A stretch of 64,000 bases of DNA, from positions 1-64,000 of the forward strand of contig CANEZP010000007.1 in NCBI GenBank assembly GCA_947444305.1, given 5' to 3'. Below, piece after piece: positions 22,383 to 59,547 of the stretch (positions within the stretch are counted from its first letter, which is position 1; every line of letters starts with the position of its first letter). This stretch comes from Pseudobdellovibrionaceae bacterium (GTDB lineage: Bacteria > Bdellovibrionota > Bdellovibrionia > Bdellovibrionales > UBA1609). The notes under the pieces are model-generated. The model made no database searches and was not told where the DNA came from. It saw nothing but the letters and a program-made list of their open reading frames with translations. The position numbers were made by a program, and so were the translations under genes.

Positions 22383-23450
22383 ATGAACGTCACGCCGTCT
22401 TTTATGCAGCACGCCAGGCCCATCCTCGGTGGTCAGGTGAATTTTCCGGTAAGCCTCGCGCCGATGGTGGGACTCTCGCACGTGGCGCTGCGTTTGATGG
22501 TGATGAAATACTTGCCCGAAGGCGCCGTCACTTTCTGGCCGACGGAGATGCTCTCGTCATGGCGGCTCCAGCGTGAGGTTTTGGGCAACACCGCCGAAAC
22601 TTACCGCTGCGCGAGCGAAACTCACTTGGTTCCGCAAATTTTAGGCAACGAAGAAGCGCCGATCGCCGAGAGCGTGAAACGTTTGGTGGATTGGGGCGCG
22701 GTGGGCGTCGACATCAACATGGGTTGCCCGGTGAACAAAGCGCTTAAGCACAATTACGGCGTGGCGCTGATGGGTGACGCCGGTTACGCGGCCGAAGTGG
22801 TGCGTATGACCAAACGCAATTCGAGCGTCCCGGTCTCGGTGAAGCTGCGCGCGGGTTTGCAAAACGACGAAGAGTTTTTGATTCGCTTCGTGAAAGGCTT
22901 GGCCGACGCCGGTGCCGACTGGGTCACTCTACATCCGCGCATCGGCGCGATGAAGCGGCGGGGCGCGGCCGACTGGCGGCAGATTCGTTTGGTGCGCGAT
23001 TCGGTTTCGATTCCCGTCGTCGGTAACGGCGATGTGCAATGCCTCGACGACGTTTTCGCGATGCTCGACATCGGTGGCTGCGACAACGTCATGATCGGCC
23101 GTGGCCTCGCGGCGAGACCGTGGCTGTTGTGGCAAGTGGGCGAACGCTTAGGTTTTGCGCCACCGCCCGGCATGACCGGCCGCGCTCCCTCGACTCCCGA
23201 AGAAGAAGGCGCCGAGTTCGGTAAATCCTGTGGGCATTTTTTAAGTTTGCTCGAGAAATATTATACGTTCGAAGAAGGCTTCAAACGTTTCAAATTTTAT
23301 TTGCGCATGGTCTGCGGCTGGCTCGAGTTCGGCCATTTTCTTTTCGCGTCGACGTCGAAAGCCAAAGACTACGCGCAACTGCGTGAGGCCTTAGAAAAGT
23401 TTTTCTCAGGCCCGCAATCTATGGTGCTCCGTACTAACTTGCGAGAGTGA
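22383..23450 (+). CDS. tRNA-dihydrouridine synthase (Dus family)
   Basis: 355 aa FMN-dependent TIM barrel: LAPMVGLSHVALRLM at the N-terminus, catalytic Cys in INMGCPVNK, then VSVKLRAG, LHPR and VVGNGDV...VMIGRGLAARPWL. It reduces uridine in tRNA D-loops. The target position cannot be assigned with confidence; it is not a close copy of the DusC-like enzyme at 26088. The 3' end abuts the accessory Rhs segment, whose frame starts inside this stop codon. Confidence 0.9.
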   Translation: MNVTPSFMQHARPILGGQVNFPVSLAPMVGLSHVALRLMVMKYLPEGAVTFWPTEMLSSWRLQREVLGNTAETYRCASETHLVPQILGNEEAPIAESVKRLVDWGAVGVDINMGCPVNKALKHNYGVALMGDAGYAAEVVRMTKRNSSVPVSVKLRAGLQNDEEFLIRFVKGLADAGADWVTLHPRIGAMKRRGAADWRQIRLVRDSVSIPVVGNGDVQCLDDVFAMLDIGGCDNVMIGRGLAARPWLLWQVGERLGFAPPPGMTGRAPSTPEEEGAEFGKSCGHFLSLLEKYYTFEEGFKRFKFYLRMVCGWLEFGHFLFASTSKAKDYAQLREALEKFFSGPQSMVLRTNLRE

Positions 23451-24886
23451 TTATTTTTTTGCCAAAAACGGCCGGTACTCTAACGAACACGTTAAGTGCG
23501 GTCACGGGACAGCTATCGTCAAATATCCTCGGTAATTCTTCCGAAACTTTTGCTTACGACTCAACGTACGGCGAACTTTCGACCTACCGCCATTTATATT
23601 CAGGCAATCAGACCTACAAAGAAGTTTACGGCAGAGATCTGTTGGGGCGGATTACATCCCGAGATGTTACAAACGGCAGCGTTTTGACGGAGTATGACTA
23701 TGTCTATGACACTTCCGGCCGCCTGAGCGAGGTATGGACGGGAGGCGTCCTGACTAGGACTTATAATTATTCGCTTAACAGCAACCGGTCTTCCGTTGTT
23801 CAAGGTTCGACGACGACATCAGCAACGTACGACAACCAAGACAGAATTTTAACCTACGGTAACTACTCATTCACTTACAACGCCCGGGGTGAATTAAGCG
23901 GTCGCACGCAGAGTGGCAGCGTTGAGGCCTTCACTTACGCTTATAATTCATTGGGCGCGATGGCGGGAATGACTCGTACATACGCTTCCGGTGCTACGAC
24001 GTTAACGGACTCGTACACTTATAGAAATGATTCTTTTGGCAATCGCATAGACATTCTAAAAGGAAGCACGCTTCAAAAACGTTATATCTATGACGAGAAG
24101 CGCCGGCTCATCGCTGAATTGAACAGTTCGGGAAATCTGGTCGCGCGCTTCGTCTACTTGAACAATTCTCATTCGCCGGATTACATGATCAAGAGCAATA
24201 TCAAATACCGTTTCGTTCATGATCATGTGGGTAGCATCGTCGCCGTTGTTCATTCCACTACCGGCGCGATTGCTTCATCAATATCCTACGATGAATTTGG
24301 AAAAATTATTTCCTCGACGGCATTGAATTTCCAGCCTTTCGGTTTCGCCGGAGGTTTGCGAGACGATGCGACGGGCTTCGTGCGGTTTGGTGCTCGGGAT
24401 TATGATCCGGAGACGGGACATTGGGCCAGCAAAGATCCGATCCTCTTTGGCGCGGGGGATACGAACCTTTACGGTTATGTGATGAACGATCCCATCAACC
24501 TGATCGATCCCAGCGGTCTCAAGCCAGGGGACAAATTCAAAACCCCCGACGCCGCCGCTCGTGATGCGATAAATTATATCAATCCGACTTCCAGAAGAGA
24601 AAATCGCGAATACAGCGGAAGCATCTTTAAAGATCCGTCGGGAAATTTCTTCGCAACCGATCCGACCGGTGGAGACGAAAATTCCAGCCGAATTCCGATT
24701 CAGCCGGGTAATTTTCCAGCGGGTATCTATCACACTCATGGTGGTCCTTCGCCTGGCGCTGAAAATTTCTCAGGTCCGGATATTGATGGCGCAGATTGGA
24801 TTGGCCGCCCGTCATGGCTTGGTACACCCTCTGGAAACATTCTAAAATACGACCCCAATTCCAAGAAGACATCACGTTGCCCATAA
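23447..24886 (+). CDS. N-terminally truncated Rhs repeat protein with C-terminal JAMM-like toxin domain (DUF4329 type)
   Basis: 479 aa. Residues ~10-330 are Rhs/YD repeats (YDTSGRLSEV, YDEKRRLIAEL, YDEFGK). The Rhs core end is ARDYDPETGHWASKDPI then LYGYVMNDPINLIDPSGL (~315-358), which marks the usual boundary before a variable toxin tip. The tip has HTHG at 429-432 with S442 and D445, fitting HxH-x10-SxxD of JAMM/JAB metallopeptidases. No signal peptide or N-terminal sheath is present and the frame starts inside the dus stop without a ribosome site. It may be an orphan or displaced Rhs tip rather than a complete effector. Base composition is AT-richer than its neighbours. Confidence 0.75.
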   Translation: MIIFLPKTAGTLTNTLSAVTGQLSSNILGNSSETFAYDSTYGELSTYRHLYSGNQTYKEVYGRDLLGRITSRDVTNGSVLTEYDYVYDTSGRLSEVWTGGVLTRTYNYSLNSNRSSVVQGSTTTSATYDNQDRILTYGNYSFTYNARGELSGRTQSGSVEAFTYAYNSLGAMAGMTRTYASGATTLTDSYTYRNDSFGNRIDILKGSTLQKRYIYDEKRRLIAELNSSGNLVARFVYLNNSHSPDYMIKSNIKYRFVHDHVGSIVAVVHSTTGAIASSISYDEFGKIISSTALNFQPFGFAGGLRDDATGFVRFGARDYDPETGHWASKDPILFGAGDTNLYGYVMNDPINLIDPSGLKPGDKFKTPDAAARDAINYINPTSRRENREYSGSIFKDPSGNFFATDPTGGDENSSRIPIQPGNFPAGIYHTHGGPSPGAENFSGPDIDGADWIGRPSWLGTPSGNILKYDPNSKKTSRCP

Positions 24887-30966: not shown

Positions 30967-30977
30967 ATAAGGCGTTG

Positions 30978-32024
30978 ATGCGATTCTTAACATTCAATCT
31001 GTGGCATGGCTTAAGTCCCTCAAGCCCCGTTTCGATGGAGGCTTTAGAACCTACGGGCCGCCGCAGTTTGCGTGAGCAATTGCAACTCGAGGTGGCCGCC
31101 TCCGTCCAGGCCGACGTTCACTTTTTCCAAGAAGCCAATCCCGTTCGCACCCGCTGCGCTTTGCTGAGCGAAGCCGTCGGTTCGGAAGGCGTGTTCCAAC
31201 GCGACCTCACCGGCATGAAACTCTTCGGCGTCGGCGTGCCTTACAATCTCAATTCCGGTTTGATTACCGCCGTCCGTCGTAAGTGGGCGATGAAGCCGCT
31301 GCAGGCCGTTTCACTCTCGCGCCCCGGCACCAATTTCGTGCGCAACTGGGGCAGCTGGCAATTGCGCGAAGAGCGCTTCGCTCTGATGTGCGAAACTATC
31401 TTGCCCGGCTGGGGCAAAGTTTTGCTGGTGAACGCGCACATCCACCACGGACTCGAGGCTACCGACACCATCGGTGAAGAGCTTATTTTCTTAGCCGATG
31501 AGCTCGAGCTTCCGGCCTCGGCGGTGAGCGAATTAAAAGAACGCCTGGCCAAAGGCAACGCCAAACGTGCGCTCGAGCTCGAAGTTTTATTCCGCACGAT
31601 CGAAAGTTTGGAAGACCGCTACGAAGCCATCGTCGTGGGTGGCGATTTTAATTCGCGTCCATCGAGCAAAGCCTACGCGAAATTCACGGAACACGGTTTC
31701 CGCGATGCTTGGGCCGAGGCCAACCCTCAAGATCCCGGTCTAACTTTTGATTCCGAAACGAACTTAGCCAATCATCTGCTGCAAAAGAAGTTTCCGCTCA
31801 CTTTAGTCGTCGAAGATCTTTCTTTTTCCACGAAAGTAAAAGAACGTCTGATGACCCTCGCGCGCAAGCACGAGCGTTCGCCCCGGCGTATCGATTATCT
31901 GTTCTTCCGTTCGAAGTCGGTGAAGCTCGCGGTAAAATCCGCTTCTTTAATCGGTAAGCCGAATGCCGAAGGGCTTGCGCCCTCCGATCACTACGGCGTG
32001 TGCGCCGACATCGAGGCGACCTAA
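30978..32024 (+). CDS. Endonuclease/exonuclease/phosphatase (EEP) family protein
   Basis: 348 aa from the ATG at 30978. EEP motifs are in order: FNLW near the start, FFQEAN (catalytic Glu), NAHIHHG, GGDFNSRPSS and SDHYGV at the end, preceded by RRIDYLFF. Members cut DNA, RNA or phosphoesters such as sphingomyelin. The absence of a signal peptide favours a cytoplasmic nuclease or phosphodiesterase. Its stop overlaps the BolA start (TAATG). Confidence 0.85.
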   Translation: MRFLTFNLWHGLSPSSPVSMEALEPTGRRSLREQLQLEVAASVQADVHFFQEANPVRTRCALLSEAVGSEGVFQRDLTGMKLFGVGVPYNLNSGLITAVRRKWAMKPLQAVSLSRPGTNFVRNWGSWQLREERFALMCETILPGWGKVLLVNAHIHHGLEATDTIGEELIFLADELELPASAVSELKERLAKGNAKRALELEVLFRTIESLEDRYEAIVVGGDFNSRPSSKAYAKFTEHGFRDAWAEANPQDPGLTFDSETNLANHLLQKKFPLTLVVEDLSFSTKVKERLMTLARKHERSPRRIDYLFFRSKSVKLAVKSASLIGKPNAEGLAPSDHYGVCADIEAT

Positions 32025-33187: not shown

Positions 33188-33419
33188 AATCTGAAAAAGA
33201 TTTCTCAAAACCAAAATAGATTTGACGGATTTTCCGAAGCCTTTGTGCGCGGATGGTGCAGTTAAAAACAGAAACTTGAAAGCAAAATCAAATTATTAAT
33301 TCGCGTTCAATACAAAGGCGATATGAGTGAATAAACAAAGGTTAAATACAAGAGTAGGTGAGCATCAAACCGCTCTCTCAAAAAGCCGTGTTATGGTCAT
33401 GCAACTTCGGAGGTTCACC

Positions 33420-34379
33420 ATGAACACAGAGCAAAAAAGAATTCACGCACGAGCGTTAGAGGCGCGGGCCAAGTTTCATAACTTTGAATTGGAGTTTATC
33501 TCGATATTGCAAGATGCCGAGCGAACGCGTTTGCCGCGTGCGCTGAATAAGCGAAGCCTGCATGTTTACGCCGTTGATGTTTTAGGTTTCACTCCGCCGG
33601 TCGCGTACATGTTCATTGCGGTCGCCCGAAAAGCGCTTGAGATTCCGGAGTTAATTGCATCGGATCTTTCCGTGTTCGTGTTGAGTCGGTTGATGTCGAC
33701 AATCAATCCGCTAAATGCGGCGGAACTGATTCATCTCGCGCAAACCAAGTCGAGCCGTGAACTGGATATGGAGCTTGGTCGTCGAAATCCTAGATATAAA
33801 GCCGAGCGAACTAAAATCCACTCCGAAGAATGCGTTGAGCTCACGGTTAAGGTCTCGGCGAAATTTTTGGACAAATTGAAACGGGTGCAAGCTTTACGTG
33901 CGCAGAAAAATTGTGAGGCCGGGATGGGTTTTGCTCTGGAGGTGAGTTTAGACGAATACCTTCGCCGGCATGATCCCGTGCAAAAAGCTGAGCGGGCTCA
34001 GAAAAGAAAAGCCGGCGCCCAAGCTTTGGCGGTGGTTGATGCGGTGCTAGGCGACGCCGTCGCGGTGGAGCCGATTGTAGATCCAATCGTTGCCGAAGTG
34101 GATGGGAATAGAAAATTCTGTGCGCACAGAAAGTTTAAGCGTGTACCCCTAACGGCGGCGCAAAGGCATGCGGTTTTTGCGCGCGACCAAGGTAAATGTA
34201 CCTCGTTGGATGCCTCGGGCACGAGATGCAATTCAGACCAATGGATTCAGGTTCACCATATTGTTGAGGTGGCTCGGGGTGGAGGTAATGAGCCCTCGAA
34301 TCTCACGACGCTTTGTTCGTTTCACCATGATTTGGTTCATCAGCTTGAGTTCAGTTTGGACGGGCAAGTGGCGGGTTGA
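33420..34379 (+). CDS. HNH endonuclease with DUF222/13E12-like N-terminal region
   Basis: 319 aa from the ATG at 33420, GGAGG six bases upstream. The helical N-terminal part (VLGFTPPVAYMFIAVARKALEIPEL, SVFVLSRLMSTINPLNAAELIHLAQ in landmarks) is like that of the multi-copy HNH proteins of actinobacteria and Bdellovibrio. The C-terminal HNH has RHAVFARDQGKC, two HH pairs (VHHIVEV, SFHHDLVH) and zinc cysteines. It probably nicks or cuts DNA. A copy of the 16-bp palindrome lies in frame at 34116-34131, encoding part of KFCAHRKF between the two domains, as if inserted. Confidence 0.85.
   Translation: MNTEQKRIHARALEARAKFHNFELEFISILQDAERTRLPRALNKRSLHVYAVDVLGFTPPVAYMFIAVARKALEIPELIASDLSVFVLSRLMSTINPLNAAELIHLAQTKSSRELDMELGRRNPRYKAERTKIHSEECVELTVKVSAKFLDKLKRVQALRAQKNCEAGMGFALEVSLDEYLRRHDPVQKAERAQKRKAGAQALAVVDAVLGDAVAVEPIVDPIVAEVDGNRKFCAHRKFKRVPLTAAQRHAVFARDQGKCTSLDASGTRCNSDQWIQVHHIVEVARGGGNEPSNLTTLCSFHHDLVHQLEFSLDGQVAG
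34116..34131. repeat. 16-bp palindrome TTCTGTGCGCACAGAA, copy 2, inside the HNH coding sequence
   Basis: Identical to the copy at 33172-33187. It sits in the linker between the N-terminal and HNH domains without breaking the frame. Confidence 0.8.
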
Positions 34380-34456: not shown

Positions 34457-36292
34457 ATGCGTAAAACGATTTTAAACTTCATGGTTGTGCCTTTTGTATT
34501 CGGTACCAGCCAAATTTGGGCCGCCAGCTGTTTAGAGGATCTTACCGGCAAAGGTGTTCTCGCGAGGGTAGGTTCATGGCTTGGAAAAGCTAAAGCATTG
34601 ACCTCGTCGTTCATGCCCCAGCTCGATCAGCCAAAAAAGGAATTGCGCTATGTTTTCTCAGACGTTTACATCTTCAGGACGCCGGTAAGGACCGGGGCGA
34701 CCTACGCTGAGGGTCCGCAAAGTGACAAGAGTGATCTGCTCTGGACCGCCTATCCATACGCAACTGCCGAAGAAAAGAACGTCAACGGACGTGATTTGAT
34801 CACGGCACGTTTGTGTGAGTTTTTTGGTTACGTCACCACCCAGCCGCGAATTTCTGAATTAAAGCATCGCGCGGTGCTTGTTCAGAAAGATTTGAGACAA
34901 TCGCACGGCTTCCTAAAGACGCCCGTTGCCGACTCTTCTAAATATCGTCAACTCCGACTCGTCTCCGCCTTGGTTGGGAAAACGCTTAAGGGCGTCAACA
35001 CAACAAATCCCGAAGAGTTAGCGGTCGAGACAACCGTCGGCACACTTGGCCTTAAAGTTTTTAAAGTTGAAAATCAGGCTGATAGCTTTGTCGAAGGTGA
35101 ATTCTCCGCAGCCGGCGGTTTGTCTGGCATTATGGAAATCGTCGACGTAAAATTGTACCCGGTCGATCATCCGTGGCGCCGGCTTAACGTTCAGGACGCG
35201 AACGCCTTCTTGAGTCAGCTCGCAAAATTCACCGACGGTGTGATCAATTCGATCGTCGCGGGCGCGCAACTCGATGATCAAAATGTGCAACGCAAGATCG
35301 TGCAAGGCCTGAAAGAGCACCGCGATGCTATGAAGCGGGATCTTGGCGCCTTCATCGCGGCGATAGATCCGGGACCTGGGCAAATCATCGGTGAGCTAGA
35401 GCCCGTTCAGCAATTGCTCGCCAAAAAGTCCATCGAACTTTCCTGGGCCAAAGAGAACGGTCCCAAAGAGGACTACATCAGACTCTGGCAGCGCGAACAT
35501 ATCGTTATCGCCGAAAAGTATCTCAAAGAATTTGCGGCGGGCCGGATCCTGGACGTTAAGCTCGCCGAGAAGCTTTGGAGCTTCTATCAGATGCGGGCTG
35601 ACGTTGAACGGAATCCCAAAGAGCTCCAGCAATTCTTGCCCGTGTTGAGCCGCGCCTTCGAAATCGGTGAACCCGCAAAACACTTTGCGAGCGAGATGTT
35701 CAACAGCTTCGTTCGTTCCGGTGATCAAAAACTGATCCGGGCGGCGCTGGATATCGTTAGGGAAAAATACTACGGTGGTCACTCCGAATCGATGAAGATT
35801 GCCTTACGCGAGCTGTGGCATCCCGTTTACGAAGGTTCGCATATTCCCAGCTTCTTGCCCGTGATTCAGACGATCAAAAGCTTGGGCGAAGGTTACCATG
35901 ACTTGGCCGAGATATTACTATTCAGCGTGATTGATCGCACGCTCTACAGCTCCCGGTTCGCCGAAACCGCGTTAAGCCGTGGCGGCGGTTTCCATAACGC
36001 GCAAGATGTGAGTAAGAGCGTCGAGGGTGGCGCACTCGCCATCGAGGAATTCTTAAGCGTAGGAACAACCCGCTCGTTAACCGCGCGACTTGAGCTAGAT
36101 AAGTTAGCCAAGCTTTTCCGGGCCATGAAATACGACAGCTTGGGCCGTCGCGGTTTTGGCCAAGGCGTAACTCCGCACGAGGCTTTCGGCTTGAACGGAA
36201 CTACCCGCAGCGAAAAGTTTGATCCGTACAAATTGATCAACGATTACATCGCCGGCAGAACGCAAACTCTGCAAATCGATTTCATTAAATAA
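34457..36292 (+). CDS. Large secreted protein of unknown function
   Basis: 611 aa, AGGGAG upstream, with a signal peptide (to about QIWAASC; cysteine near the cleavage region could also be a lipobox-like site but the motif is poor). Residues ~60-400 are alpha/beta, with no motif I can name; the C-terminal part looks helical. Acidic/basic composition is balanced and there are few cysteines. It has its own operator-like palindrome upstream and a terminator hairpin after it, so it is probably monocistronic. Its neighbours are also exported proteins of unknown role. Confidence 0.7.
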   Translation: MRKTILNFMVVPFVFGTSQIWAASCLEDLTGKGVLARVGSWLGKAKALTSSFMPQLDQPKKELRYVFSDVYIFRTPVRTGATYAEGPQSDKSDLLWTAYPYATAEEKNVNGRDLITARLCEFFGYVTTQPRISELKHRAVLVQKDLRQSHGFLKTPVADSSKYRQLRLVSALVGKTLKGVNTTNPEELAVETTVGTLGLKVFKVENQADSFVEGEFSAAGGLSGIMEIVDVKLYPVDHPWRRLNVQDANAFLSQLAKFTDGVINSIVAGAQLDDQNVQRKIVQGLKEHRDAMKRDLGAFIAAIDPGPGQIIGELEPVQQLLAKKSIELSWAKENGPKEDYIRLWQREHIVIAEKYLKEFAAGRILDVKLAEKLWSFYQMRADVERNPKELQQFLPVLSRAFEIGEPAKHFASEMFNSFVRSGDQKLIRAALDIVREKYYGGHSESMKIALRELWHPVYEGSHIPSFLPVIQTIKSLGEGYHDLAEILLFSVIDRTLYSSRFAETALSRGGGFHNAQDVSKSVEGGALAIEEFLSVGTTRSLTARLELDKLAKLFRAMKYDSLGRRGFGQGVTPHEAFGLNGTTRSEKFDPYKLINDYIAGRTQTLQIDFIK

Positions 36293-36330: not shown

Positions 36331-37329
36331 CTAGCGAAACGATTCTGAAGATTGTTGCGGTGAAGAAGTGGTGCCGGATTGACAAGCCGGCGGCATGGCC
36401 TTCGATAGCGGATAGCACGAGGTCCAAGAGCTATTCTGTTCCCGGTTGCCGGTGACGTTCGCAAGTTGGTCGGTTGTTGTTATGAATTGAGACTTACACG
36501 TGCGGCTCACCGGGCTAGCGCAAATCAATTGTTCAATCTTATCTACCGGAAGCTGTTTCCCCCCGTTGGCCGTCAAGAATAGGCCCTGAAGATCATCGAA
36601 GGTCTTTGGTTGGTTTGATCCGAGCGGCACGCACTCCCTTTTAGCTACTTCGCCGGATAGTCGCGTGATATTTGCGCTATCATCACTGATCTGGTCACGG
36701 CCCGCCGAATTGAGCATCGAAGAGTTCGGCCCAAGATCTAAACCGCCCGAGAAGCAAGAATCATTTAATCCAAAAACCTTTTTGCCCGCGAAAGCTTTCC
36801 GTAAGTCCGAACTTCTCACGACGTATTTCTCAAGCCCTTCGCAGCCTGGGCTCCACGACTTAGCTTTGCGGGCATTCGCTTTGTCATTTTCCAAACGGAT
36901 ATCGCCGCGGCACTTTGCGAGCAGGGACGGCGGCATCGCGGGCAAGGGAATCGCCCATTCGCCGTCCGCGAGCAAAATACCGTGCCCTGAATAATTGAAA
37001 TTAACGTATTTAGCGCTTCCGATATTTTTTGTGAGGATGGCTAGCAGCTCTTTTTTTTCCATCATCGTTTGGAACGGCGTTTGCTCATTCATCTCGAAGC
37101 TACGTGCGCTCCATATTTGCGAAAGCTGTTTTTGCGTCCGTGCGTCTTCCGCGACGTTGTTGAGATCCACGAACCCGCGGTTCACTCGGCCTTGATTAAA
37201 CGCTAAGTTAAGGCTCACCGTTTCTTGGCGTTGTTGAGGTTTGCATGCAGGTTGGGCCGCTACGGATTCCAACCCGCAGATAACGACGAGGGATAAGCTC
37301 ATAGTTAAGTTACGAATGGCAGAATTCAT
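36331..37329 (-). CDS. Exported caspase-fold (C14-like) cysteine peptidase
   Basis: 332 aa with a signal peptide (to about VAAQP). The caspase-type dyad is clear: His116 in FNYSGHG and Cys192 in GLNDSCFSGG. The ~60 residues between them suit the family. Acidic specificity-pocket residues cannot be judged. The C-terminal tail is Ser/Gln-rich. Metacaspase-like enzymes usually cleave after Arg/Lys or Asp. Export points to action in the periplasm or outside. It is coupled by ATGA to the upstream secreted protein gene. Confidence 0.75.
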   Translation of the reverse strand: MNSAIRNLTMSLSLVVICGLESVAAQPACKPQQRQETVSLNLAFNQGRVNRGFVDLNNVAEDARTQKQLSQIWSARSFEMNEQTPFQTMMEKKELLAILTKNIGSAKYVNFNYSGHGILLADGEWAIPLPAMPPSLLAKCRGDIRLENDKANARKAKSWSPGCEGLEKYVVRSSDLRKAFAGKKVFGLNDSCFSGGLDLGPNSSMLNSAGRDQISDDSANITRLSGEVAKRECVPLGSNQPKTFDDLQGLFLTANGGKQLPVDKIEQLICASPVSRTCKSQFITTTDQLANVTGNREQNSSWTSCYPLSKAMPPACQSGTTSSPQQSSESFR

Positions 37330-38096
37330 TTTAGCGTATCGGGGGGCGGAGTTGATTCGATGGCTTTATTGCCGTTCGCTGTAGGCATTCCGGAGTTACC
37401 GAACCTCCAAAGACCTTCGTTTGGCCAGGTCAACTCAATCTCCGCACTGTACTCGAACGGCGAGGGTTTTTTTCTTTTCGCGGCCCATTTCTCAAACTGC
37501 GTTTTGAATTTTTGTGCTTCTGGATTCGACATGCCCCGATTTTTTGAGTCGGCGTATTCTCCCGTTTTGCAGGCAGGAGTTAACGGTGGAATGTTTTTTA
37601 TATTCGGCGGAAGGGGCTGGGCATTAATTTTGACCTGAACCCACGGCGCGCTATTCTCCGAAATCGTAACTTTACAAGTTTCCTTCAAAGAATTCCAACC
37701 GTCCTCGGTAAGGGGTGTTGCTAACCCCGCTTCGGCGGTGGGAAGGAGTAAATCCACAATCCAATATCTTGAAAAGGCCATGTTTGGCGCACAGATCGCC
37801 TTGTGCAGTATTTCTTTTTCTTTCTCCGAAAGCGGTTCATTAAGAACCAGGCCAACCCCGCCGGACTGAATCATACGATCGTTTGATGACGAGCCCGTGC
37901 TTCGAAGGTCAATACAGTTTTTATTTTTTAGAAGTCGAAGACCCTTCGCCAGATTTTCCGCGGCTTTGACCGGCGTGTTTTCTAGATTGAAAGTATAGAG
38001 ATAGATCTTCGGTTCGGCCATGCTCCGTGCGGGAGCGAACAATGTAAACGTGAGTAGGAGAGTCCCAACCGAGAGGTTCGCTATCCAAGATTTCAT
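37326..38096 (-). CDS. Exported protein of unknown function coupled to the caspase-like gene
   Basis: 256 aa from the ATG at 38096; a longer frame upstream is unlikely because the signal peptide (SVGTLLLTFTLFAPARSMA) starts here. Mature protein has four cysteines and the segment LPPNIKNIPPLTPAC. No domain recognised. The stop overlaps the caspase-like start (ATGA), so the two are made together. It might be a substrate, partner or inhibitor (inference). Confidence 0.65.
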   Translation of the reverse strand: MKSWIANLSVGTLLLTFTLFAPARSMAEPKIYLYTFNLENTPVKAAENLAKGLRLLKNKNCIDLRSTGSSSNDRMIQSGGVGLVLNEPLSEKEKEILHKAICAPNMAFSRYWIVDLLLPTAEAGLATPLTEDGWNSLKETCKVTISENSAPWVQVKINAQPLPPNIKNIPPLTPACKTGEYADSKNRGMSNPEAQKFKTQFEKWAAKRKKPSPFEYSAEIELTWPNEGLWRFGNSGMPTANGNKAIESTPPPDTLK

Positions 38097-57625: not shown

Positions 57626-58507
57626 ATGGCAAAAGGTAAAATCGTCGCCGGAGTTTTGGCTCCGCATCCGCCGCACCTCGTGTACGCCGAAAATCCTCCG
57701 CAGAACGAGCCGAAAGCCGAATGCGGTTGGGAGACTTTGCGCTGGGCTTACGAACGCTTGCGCAGTTCACTCGCGCGCATCGAATACGACGTCATCATCG
57801 TGCAAAGCGCACACTGGCGCACGAACAGCGGAACGCATTTTTTGGGCGTACCGCATTTCAAAGGTTTGTCGGTCGATCCGGTGTTCCCGAATTTGTTCCG
57901 TTACACTTACGATTTAAAAGTCGACGTGCCGCTCGCCGAAGCAATCTGCCAAAAGGCGGAGGCCGCCGGCCTCGCGACCGAGATGATGCGCAACAAAGAT
58001 TACCGCATCGATTACGGCGCGATCGTTTCTTGCCATATGACCAATCCGTCGTGGGACACGCCGATCGTCGGCATTTCAAGCGTGGGTTCGGCCAGGTACT
58101 TCAATATGGATGTCTTGCAAGCGCAGATGTTCAAGCTTGGGCAGGCGACGCGCGAGGCGGTCGAAGCTTCGGGCAAGCGCGCGGTTTTACTGTCGAGCAA
58201 TTCGCTAAGCCACCGGCACTTCACCAAGGAGCCGGCGTTAGTCGAAGACATGAGCTTCGAGCACATCAACAATCACAATCAATATCTCTGGGACATGAAA
58301 ATGATCGATCTCATGAAGCGCGGCAAATCGCGCGAGATGATCGACATCCTGACCGACTTTACCGAACAAGCCAGCGCCGAAACCGACAGCGGCGCGCTTT
58401 CGTGGATGATGTCCGCGATGAATTTTCCCGATTACCCGGCGGAAGTGCACGGCTACGGCACGGTCATCGGCACCGGCAACGCCATCGTGGAATGGAGCCA
58501 GGCGTGA
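57626..58507 (+). CDS. amnB: LigB-type extradiol dioxygenase, catalytic subunit (AmnB-like)
   Basis: 293 aa. It carries HPPH (14-17), SAH (H63) and Glu252 in AETDSG, matching, with a one-residue offset, the Fe(II) ligands I recall for the 2-aminophenol 1,6-dioxygenase beta subunit (His13, His62, Glu251). SHRHF (H196) matches the acid-base His195. It would open the ring of 2-aminophenol or a related aminated/hydroxylated aromatic. The stop overlaps the next start (GTGA). Confidence 0.8.
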   Translation: MAKGKIVAGVLAPHPPHLVYAENPPQNEPKAECGWETLRWAYERLRSSLARIEYDVIIVQSAHWRTNSGTHFLGVPHFKGLSVDPVFPNLFRYTYDLKVDVPLAEAICQKAEAAGLATEMMRNKDYRIDYGAIVSCHMTNPSWDTPIVGISSVGSARYFNMDVLQAQMFKLGQATREAVEASGKRAVLLSSNSLSHRHFTKEPALVEDMSFEHINNHNQYLWDMKMIDLMKRGKSREMIDILTDFTEQASAETDSGALSWMMSAMNFPDYPAEVHGYGTVIGTGNAIVEWSQA

Positions 58508-59547
58508 ATCCCGTAATTAAAGGTTACGTTCTGCCGGGCCTGCCGCATTTGTTGCTTACGCCCGAAGCCAATCCGGGTTGGCAAAAGATCCGCTCGGCGA
58601 TGGATAAAGTGCGCGATGAAATCGCGAAGAGCGAAGCCGACGTTTTGATGATCTACTCGACGTACTGGCCCAGCGTGATCGGACACCAAATCTTGGCGCG
58701 CCCCGAAGCCGAGTGGGTTCACGTCGACGAACAGTTCCACGCGGTGGGATCTATCCCGTACAAGATCAAAGCCGACCGCGAACTCGCTTTAACCTACGTC
58801 GAAATGGCCAAAGCCCGGAACCTGCAAGCGCGCGAAATCAATTACCACGGTTTTCCGATCGACACGGGGAGCGTGGTGGTTTCCAAAATCGTCAATCCCG
58901 ACAACCGGATCCCGTGCGTGGTGGTTTCATCGAACGTTTACTCCGATCGCGCCGAGACGATCGTGCTCGGCAAAGCGGCGCGGGATGCGCTGCTGAAACA
59001 AAAAAAGAAAGCCATCGCGATCGTCGTGACGTCACTCAGTAATCGTATTCACGACAAGGTCACCGCACCCCAAGACGACAAGATCCATTCGCTCAAAGAT
59101 CAAGAATGGAACCAGAAATTTTTAGAGTTCTTGGGCGAAGGCCGCCTCGAGGACGTTTCGCAATTGTCGCGACAGTTTCACAAAGAAGCGCGCGTGCACA
59201 AAGTCGGCAACTTCAAACCGTTTTGGTGGCTCGCCTCGGTCATGGGGCAAAACAATCTCTACGCCGGCAACGTCATGGAATATCAACCGGTTTACGGCAG
59301 CGGCGCCGCGGTCGTTTCGCTTACGCCGTCCTCGAAGGCCGCGCGTGACCTCGAGTTTGACGAAAACGATCCCGAATCTTTCCCGGGCGAACGCAACGTG
59401 CTCGGCGGCGGAGAACCCGCGGCGCATGCCTCGCTCCGTGAGCTCGAAGCCGACGCGGATATCGATGTCGGTGCGGAGATCGGCGCCGACGAGCCCGACG
59501 ATCTCGAAGTGGAAGACGACGCGGGGGCGGGGAGCAACCCCCGATGA
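58504..59547 (+). CDS. amnA: LigB-family non-catalytic dioxygenase subunit (AmnA-like) with acidic tail
   Basis: 347 aa, GTG start in the amnB overlap. Residues ~1-275 resemble the alpha subunit of 2-aminophenol dioxygenase (KGYVLPGLPHLLL, DVLMIYSTYWPSVIG, IVVTSLSNRIH); it keeps the H of LPH but the other iron ligands are not arranged as in the beta subunit. The last ~65 residues, after RDLEFDEND, are strongly acidic (Asp/Glu/Ala/Gly-rich), an extension absent from the family. It ends at an ATGA overlap with the next gene. Confidence 0.75.
   Translation: MNPVIKGYVLPGLPHLLLTPEANPGWQKIRSAMDKVRDEIAKSEADVLMIYSTYWPSVIGHQILARPEAEWVHVDEQFHAVGSIPYKIKADRELALTYVEMAKARNLQAREINYHGFPIDTGSVVVSKIVNPDNRIPCVVVSSNVYSDRAETIVLGKAARDALLKQKKKAIAIVVTSLSNRIHDKVTAPQDDKIHSLKDQEWNQKFLEFLGEGRLEDVSQLSRQFHKEARVHKVGNFKPFWWLASVMGQNNLYAGNVMEYQPVYGSGAAVVSLTPSSKAARDLEFDENDPESFPGERNVLGGGEPAAHASLRELEADADIDVGAEIGADEPDDLEVEDDAGAGSNPR

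Follow-up and report, generated by a model that had tools for sequence, protein, structure and literature searches.

A divergent, probably exported caspase-fold protein in an apparent relative of Bdellovibrio

The gene at positions 36331 to 37329 of the window (the whole stretch of 64,000 nucleotides that was analysed) was identified as a divergent caspase-fold gene. On the basis of its sequence and a structure model, we consider it reasonably probable that its product is an exported, Arg/Lys-directed caspase-type endopeptidase of putative activity, encoded by an accessory gene. Once exported by Sec and freed of its signal peptide, the protein would fold in the periplasm or extracellularly. 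Its caspase fold, of the orthocaspase type, would be stabilised by disulfides. A Cys192/His116 dyad with an acidic S1 pocket (Asp62 and Asp190) would then cut exposed proteins or peptides after Arg or Lys.

Locus layout and export signals

The gene overlaps a second gene, here called the partner. The partner ORF lies upstream and the caspase ORF downstream, and both are on the minus strand. The features were as follows.

36331..37329, minus strand: putative cysteine endopeptidase with a caspase fold (orthocaspase-type, p20-like), probably exported; 332 aa with 10 Cys
37326..38096, minus strand: partner, a presumably co-translated and exported protein of a small family, 256 aa
37326..37329, minus strand: ATGA stop-start overlap of the partner TGA and the caspase ATG, read in the sequence
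37255..37329, minus strand: probable Sec signal peptide of the caspase, residues ~1-25 (hydropathy and crude predictor; inferred boundary)
38016..38096, minus strand: probable Sec signal peptide of the partner, residues ~1-27 (hydropathy and crude predictor; inferred boundary)
36982..36984, minus strand: codon of catalytic His116 (SGHG), His in 8/8 family members
36754..36756, minus strand: codon of catalytic Cys192 (NDSC), Cys in 6/8 family copies and Asp in 2/8
37144..37146, minus strand: codon of Asp62, aligned with the S1-pocket Asp of metacaspase GCxND, Asp in 8/8
36760..36762, minus strand: codon of Asp190, two residues before the catalytic Cys, Asp in 8/8

The earlier note had described an intact His116/Cys192 pair, an ATGA overlap with the partner and a signal peptide on the caspase. 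The two catalytic residues were found in YSGHG (His116) and NDSCFSGG (Cys192) with exact numbering, and the overlap was present in the sequence. A signal-peptide-like N-terminus was also confirmed, on the partner as well as on the caspase. Each N-terminus begins with charged residues, followed by a hydrophobic core and an A-x-A-like site, and both were called positive by our own crude and lenient predictor, which suggested export. The same predictor was negative in two of the eight caspase-family copies as called, those of genomes G014 (longest start) and G270. No Shine-Dalgarno sequence was evident by eye before the caspase ATG (TCCGCCCCCCGATACGCTAAAATG). This fits translational coupling to the upstream partner, and translation of the caspase probably depends on the partner gene.

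The large exported neighbour of the earlier note is real, a 611-aa protein at 34457-36292 with a signal-peptide-like start. However, it is convergent to the pair on the opposite strand and so lies outside the operon of the pair. The ORF at 33327-34379, upstream of it on its own strand, passes the Pfam cut-off for an HNH endonuclease domain (E 1.4e-5). Elsewhere in the window, we take an ORF at 30975-32024 to be exo/endonuclease-phosphatase-like and genes at 57626-59547 to be ring-cleavage-dioxygenase-like, probably a catabolic cluster. There was 1 promoter-like match (2.2 expected) and there were 6 terminator-like matches (3.7 expected); an inverted repeat between the convergent genes was not significant (folding z -1.28).

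Recognition of the caspase family

The window caspase gave no caspase match in Pfam, NCBIfam or PDB sequences, nor any match to PF00656 (Peptidase_C14). Its weak matches there were to other proteins (HTH_57, E 0.17; triphenylmethane reductase, E 0.07-0.08). The link came through its family, beginning with a homologue in G014 (E 8e-23). A profile of these two sequences recovered three further copies among 140 genomes of the order. The resulting five-member profile, run at E 0.001 on 368 genomes of the phylum, recovered eight caspase-family copies from 7 of them, namely the window copy and those of G014, G090, G063, G110, G269 (two) and G270. Sub-threshold matches (E 0.05-0.32) were left out of the family, and no convincing homologue was found in three same-genus genomes.

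The PF00656 cut-off was passed by three of the eight members (three of the seven homologues, best 2.8e-10), not by the window copy, and NCBIfam caspase_w_EACC1 matched two of the eight (best 1.5e-5). Searched against the PDB, the family profile matched plant and fungal metacaspases (best whole-sequence E 4.2e-6, best single stretch 0.016). It also matched Geobacter GSU0716 (E 9e-4), with no stretch passing alone. When genome contigs were scanned with the caspase as a single protein, there was no match. The alignment scan gave two loci, the G090 and G014 copies, both from Bdellovibrionaceae MAGs. Because of this origin, and since G014 belongs to the same taxonomic family as the window genome, the window bacterium is apparently related to Bdellovibrio. 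A divergent member of the bacterial caspases fits the picture already known from surveys.

Active site, substrate pocket and cysteines

The His-Cys dyad of the window copy was present in its SGHG and DSC context. In the family profile, Asp62 aligned with the corresponding Asp of AtMCA4 and of the Candida glabrata metacaspase, and the spacing of Asp190 to Cys192 equalled that of Asp211 to Cys213 in TbMC2. Asp95 and Asp211 of T. brucei MC2 are described in a passage of PMC6426788 as the acidic residues that receive basic substrate side chains. Asp62 and Asp190 would thus provide the two acidic S1-pocket residues for a basic P1. Since both are conserved and match the metacaspase pocket for basic residues, cleavage after Arg or Lys is the likely specificity of the window caspase, as judged from the alignment.

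Asp replaced the catalytic Cys (NDSD) in G270 and in one of the two G269 copies, and His and the other invariant residues were kept. These copies (L046 1111-2337 in G270 and L047 1123-2325 in G269) are pseudo-proteases inside the same small family, and the genes beside them are presumably MarC-like. The replacement in two distant copies suggested that part of the family may act without proteolysis. By extension, the window protein could be a non-proteolytic binding protein with a caspase fold, like a pseudo-orthocaspase, in which the dyad is a relic. Pseudo-orthocaspases make up 8.6% of bacterial orthocaspases/caspase homologues according to a passage of PMC6426788. However, the window copy retains His, Cys and both pocket Asp residues, and we regard such a relic as highly improbable.

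A strict EF-hand loop (DxDxDG) followed the catalytic Cys at the same place in three of the eight copies (G014, G090, G063). By chance, such a loop appeared in 0-9 of 2000 shuffles per protein. These related copies probably use Ca2+ through the loop behind the catalytic Cys. The window copy had no strict loop, just a loose TANGGKQLPVDK, so its enzyme would probably work constitutively or under some other form of control. Of the cysteines away from the active site, Cys163 was conserved in 8/8 copies, Cys140 in 6/8 and Cys305 in 5/8, and the three closest family copies carried a C-terminal SWxxC. The conserved cysteines would suit an oxidising compartment.

Predicted structure

The caspase was modelled by AlphaFold from a three-sequence alignment. 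The mean pLDDT was 50.8, and values fell below 50 at the active site (192-195) and in residues 208-332. Over residues 30-191 the model showed the caspase order of strands and helices, at low overall confidence, with elements including E37-44, H59-70, E76-80, H92-103, E108-115, H173-179 and E184-191. Its last strands ran into SGHG and NDSC. The first VIA-align match was the yeast metacaspase Yca1 (Z 11.4, 2.9 A, 141 residues aligned). Among the 50 matches listed by Foldseek and the 50 listed by VIA-align, every entry title was a metacaspase, MALT1 or a caspase. Foldseek gave seven matches at E <= 0.001, and the TM-scores by query length were low (0.24-0.35 among the matches listed). These results indicated a caspase p20 fold in the window protein, in a model of low overall confidence. 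No p10 domain was recognised in this model, in which residues 208-332 are poorly resolved. The single-sequence model of the partner (mean pLDDT 42.5) was not used.

The partner family

The partner matched no family in Pfam. Among the 58 relatives searched first, no convincing match was found; besides the query's own gene there were six hits at E 0.01-0.24, one in the window genome itself, and these were left out. There was also no convincing homologue in the three same-genus genomes. In the 368 genomes of the phylum, matches were found in G351 (E 1.6e-5) and G338 (E 3.3e-5), and a partner profile added a second G351 copy and one in G105. These four are real homologues, and the family was clearly present in 4/368 genomes, the window genome among them. 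A five-member partner profile added two weak, partial matches (G100, E 0.006; G323, E 0.004). With both, the tally at E 0.01 was 6/368; neither was counted as a member, which leaves 4/368. A match in G266 (E 0.005), with a stop inside, was not counted either.

Cys 61, 102, 141 and 176 (window numbering) are the only four cysteines of the partner, and all were invariant in 5/5 family members. One G351 copy sits in a probable cell-wall/division cluster. At that locus (L037 3295-4835) the partner-family gene and another exported-looking gene lie between genes that we take to be ftsI- and murE-like, and a further neighbour is presumably mraY-like.

Association of the caspase and the partner

A secreted proteolytic system or a regulated envelope protease had been suggested in the earlier note, with conservation of the pair as one of its checks. 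The caspase family (7/368) and the partner family (4/368) co-occurred in the window genome only. Profile searches found no partner in any of the six other genomes that keep the protease (0/6), which is the outcome that the earlier note itself had named as a refutation, and G100 and G323 are not caspase genomes either. In the stretches read around the four partner homologues in three other genomes, no caspase was found. The partner is no constant companion of the caspase, and the suggestion of a two-part system was left unsupported.

Exported-looking neighbours of the other caspase copies were then compared. In G014, a 374-aa exported-looking protein is encoded 3 nt downstream of the caspase (0 nt from an alternative TTG). 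The G063 caspase is overlapped by GTGA with an exported-looking neighbour of ~216 aa, and in G110 a 462-aa exported-looking protein lies upstream, 8 nt from the caspase. No coupled neighbour of this kind was found for G090 (ORFs of at least 110 aa), where a same-strand ORF overshadowed by the longer convergent gene was discounted as spurious, or for the three G269/G270 copies (ORFs of at least 100 aa). When the window partner was compared by blastp with ORFs of at least 80 aa at the G014, G090, G063 and G110 loci, the best match was E 0.77, to another ORF. For G269 and G270, the comparison with the window partner consisted of the profile searches only.

An exported-looking gene was tightly coupled in four of the eight caspase copies, window included. 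In a sample of the window genome (the 64 kb window and 400 kb more, 458 crudely called genes), 59 of 202 signal-peptide-like genes had such a neighbour within 15 nt. At that base rate, the chance of at least four coupled copies in eight was 0.18, a value that rests on a lenient predictor, a base rate from one genome and eight copies from seven genomes. Since coupled exported pairs are this common, the coupling of the caspase copies appeared ordinary.

These data bear on the possibility that the two proteins form a dedicated system, in which the partner is the inhibitor, substrate or anchor of the protease, made first, co-exported and matched to it. The ATGA overlap, the lack of an evident ribosome site for the protease and the exported look of both proteins agree with it, as do the coupled exported-looking proteins directly beside three of the seven other copies (G063, G014, G110). 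However, those neighbours are dissimilar to the window partner, the partner occurs in three other genomes that have no caspase, and such pairs are commonplace in the window genome. A conserved pair was rejected on these grounds, and we consider a dedicated system unlikely. A broader proposal is that exported caspases across the phylum are repeatedly coupled to unrelated exported proteins, each serving its own caspase copy as substrate, inhibitor or anchor; Ca2+ gating would come and go, and catalytically dead copies would act as regulators. We regard this as very unlikely; if true, such coupled caspases would be an envelope protease platform with exchangeable partners. For the exported Arg/Lys-directed endopeptidase that we favour, translation would be tied to the upstream exported partner in the window genome, and the partner would not be a required component.

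Toxin and defence contexts

Some clan CD peptidases elsewhere serve in polymorphic-toxin or contact-dependent weaponry, and the window caspase could be a releasing or processing peptidase of that kind. In the window, an RHS/DUF4329 ORF lies ~11 kb from the pair. In G063, three ORFs separate the caspase from a gene ~2.3 kb upstream, read the same way, that encodes a Pre-toxin TG protein (PF14449, E 1.9e-14). However, the pre-toxin domain was found in just that one neighbour among those scanned with Pfam (window 5, coupled 3, G063 6, G014 2, G110 1), and one locus is an anecdote. Neither pair protein matched PADLOC-DB at E 0.1 (2023 library). A weaponry role is accordingly given very little weight. 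An immune or defence reading of the pair was also rejected, as PF00656 had no match in the window genome and PADLOC gave none.

The exported-looking Pre-toxin TG gene of G063 (L022 2239-4052) is followed by a small ORF overlapping it by 4 nt, possibly a polymorphic toxin and immunity pair. The ORF in the window (23447-24886) is of the RHS/YD-shell type with a C-terminal DUF4329 domain, perhaps a polymorphic-toxin fragment. The G+C content drops to 0.48 at 24-26 kb.

Origin of the pair

In G001, of the same genus, the genes on the upstream side of the pair, 38230 (E 2e-29) and 38838 (E 4e-4 over 53 aa), were found in the same order. The 8 kb on the pair's side held no match to the caspase or the partner. 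The 38230 gene was missing from the other two same-genus genomes. GC3 was 0.57 and 0.52 for the pair, compared with 0.68-0.73 for ettA, sahH and fumC. The convergent 611-aa neighbour was also lowish (0.60), so GC3 is weak evidence for acquisition. These results suggested that the pair is a lineage-specific arrival, and the caspase gene would be accessory and perhaps horizontally acquired. A mobile-element reading was rejected: no relative of the caspase was found in phages or plasmids, none of the partner in plasmids, and none in viral contigs by a close-relative search.

Comparison with known caspases

The window copy, missed by the profile libraries tried, extends the bacterial caspases by a divergent, Cys-rich and probably exported branch. 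Within its family, small as it is, there is variation in the dyad as well as in the Ca2+ loop. An active window enzyme would mean caspase-fold proteolysis in an oxidising compartment of a Bdellovibrio relative; among the matches listed, no literature title described an exported caspase from such a relative.

The closest solved folds are those of metacaspases (Yca1, Arabidopsis MCA4/9, Candida glabrata and T. brucei MC2), with which the dyad and S1 Asp were aligned. These metacaspases are intracellular, have a p10 part and are often Ca2+-dependent. In contrast, the window copy is likely exported, has no recognised p10 and has no EF-hand loop.

Other caspases were observed in relatives. Those of G055, G016 and G028 (L024, L025, L026) match PF00656 and lack a signal peptide; each is coupled to a small gene that we take to be TIR-like, with a second presumed TIR-like gene in G055 and G028; these loci are probable immune modules. 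Another exported-looking type was found in the order, in G007 (L027 1405-2940) and G021 (L028 84-1727). Like the window family, it has a signal-peptide-like start and a caspase domain, and it carries an EF-hand-like loop. Unlike the window copy, it passes the PF00656 cut-off and has a long C-terminal region. The G007 caspase follows what are presumably a sigma-factor-like gene and a membrane-anchored gene. This arrangement resembles the sigma-70-linked Myxococcus operons described in PMC3501461.

The earlier note put the usual location of bacterial caspases in the cytoplasm, which is somewhat too strong. As reported in the 2012 survey (PMC3501461), only 142 of 671 prokaryotic sequences could be placed, 98 as 'membrane' and 30 as 'extracellular', and most of the 98 have an N-terminal helix, possibly a signal peptide. 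The same survey covered 1463 prokaryotic genomes, with 237 of 508 caspase homologues in predicted operons with varied neighbours; for 70 of 217 such operons the function was unknown. For seven archaeal proteins, PMC6426788 reports EF-hand motifs. With the prokaryotic orthocaspases (C14, PF00656), the window protein shares the p20 fold, the SGHG and DSC motifs and the acidic S1 pocket, together with a probable signal peptide as in some members (PMC3501461). It differs from them in falling below all family thresholds and in its 10 Cys and C-terminal SWxxC segment, and its family differs in being scattered within one phylum.
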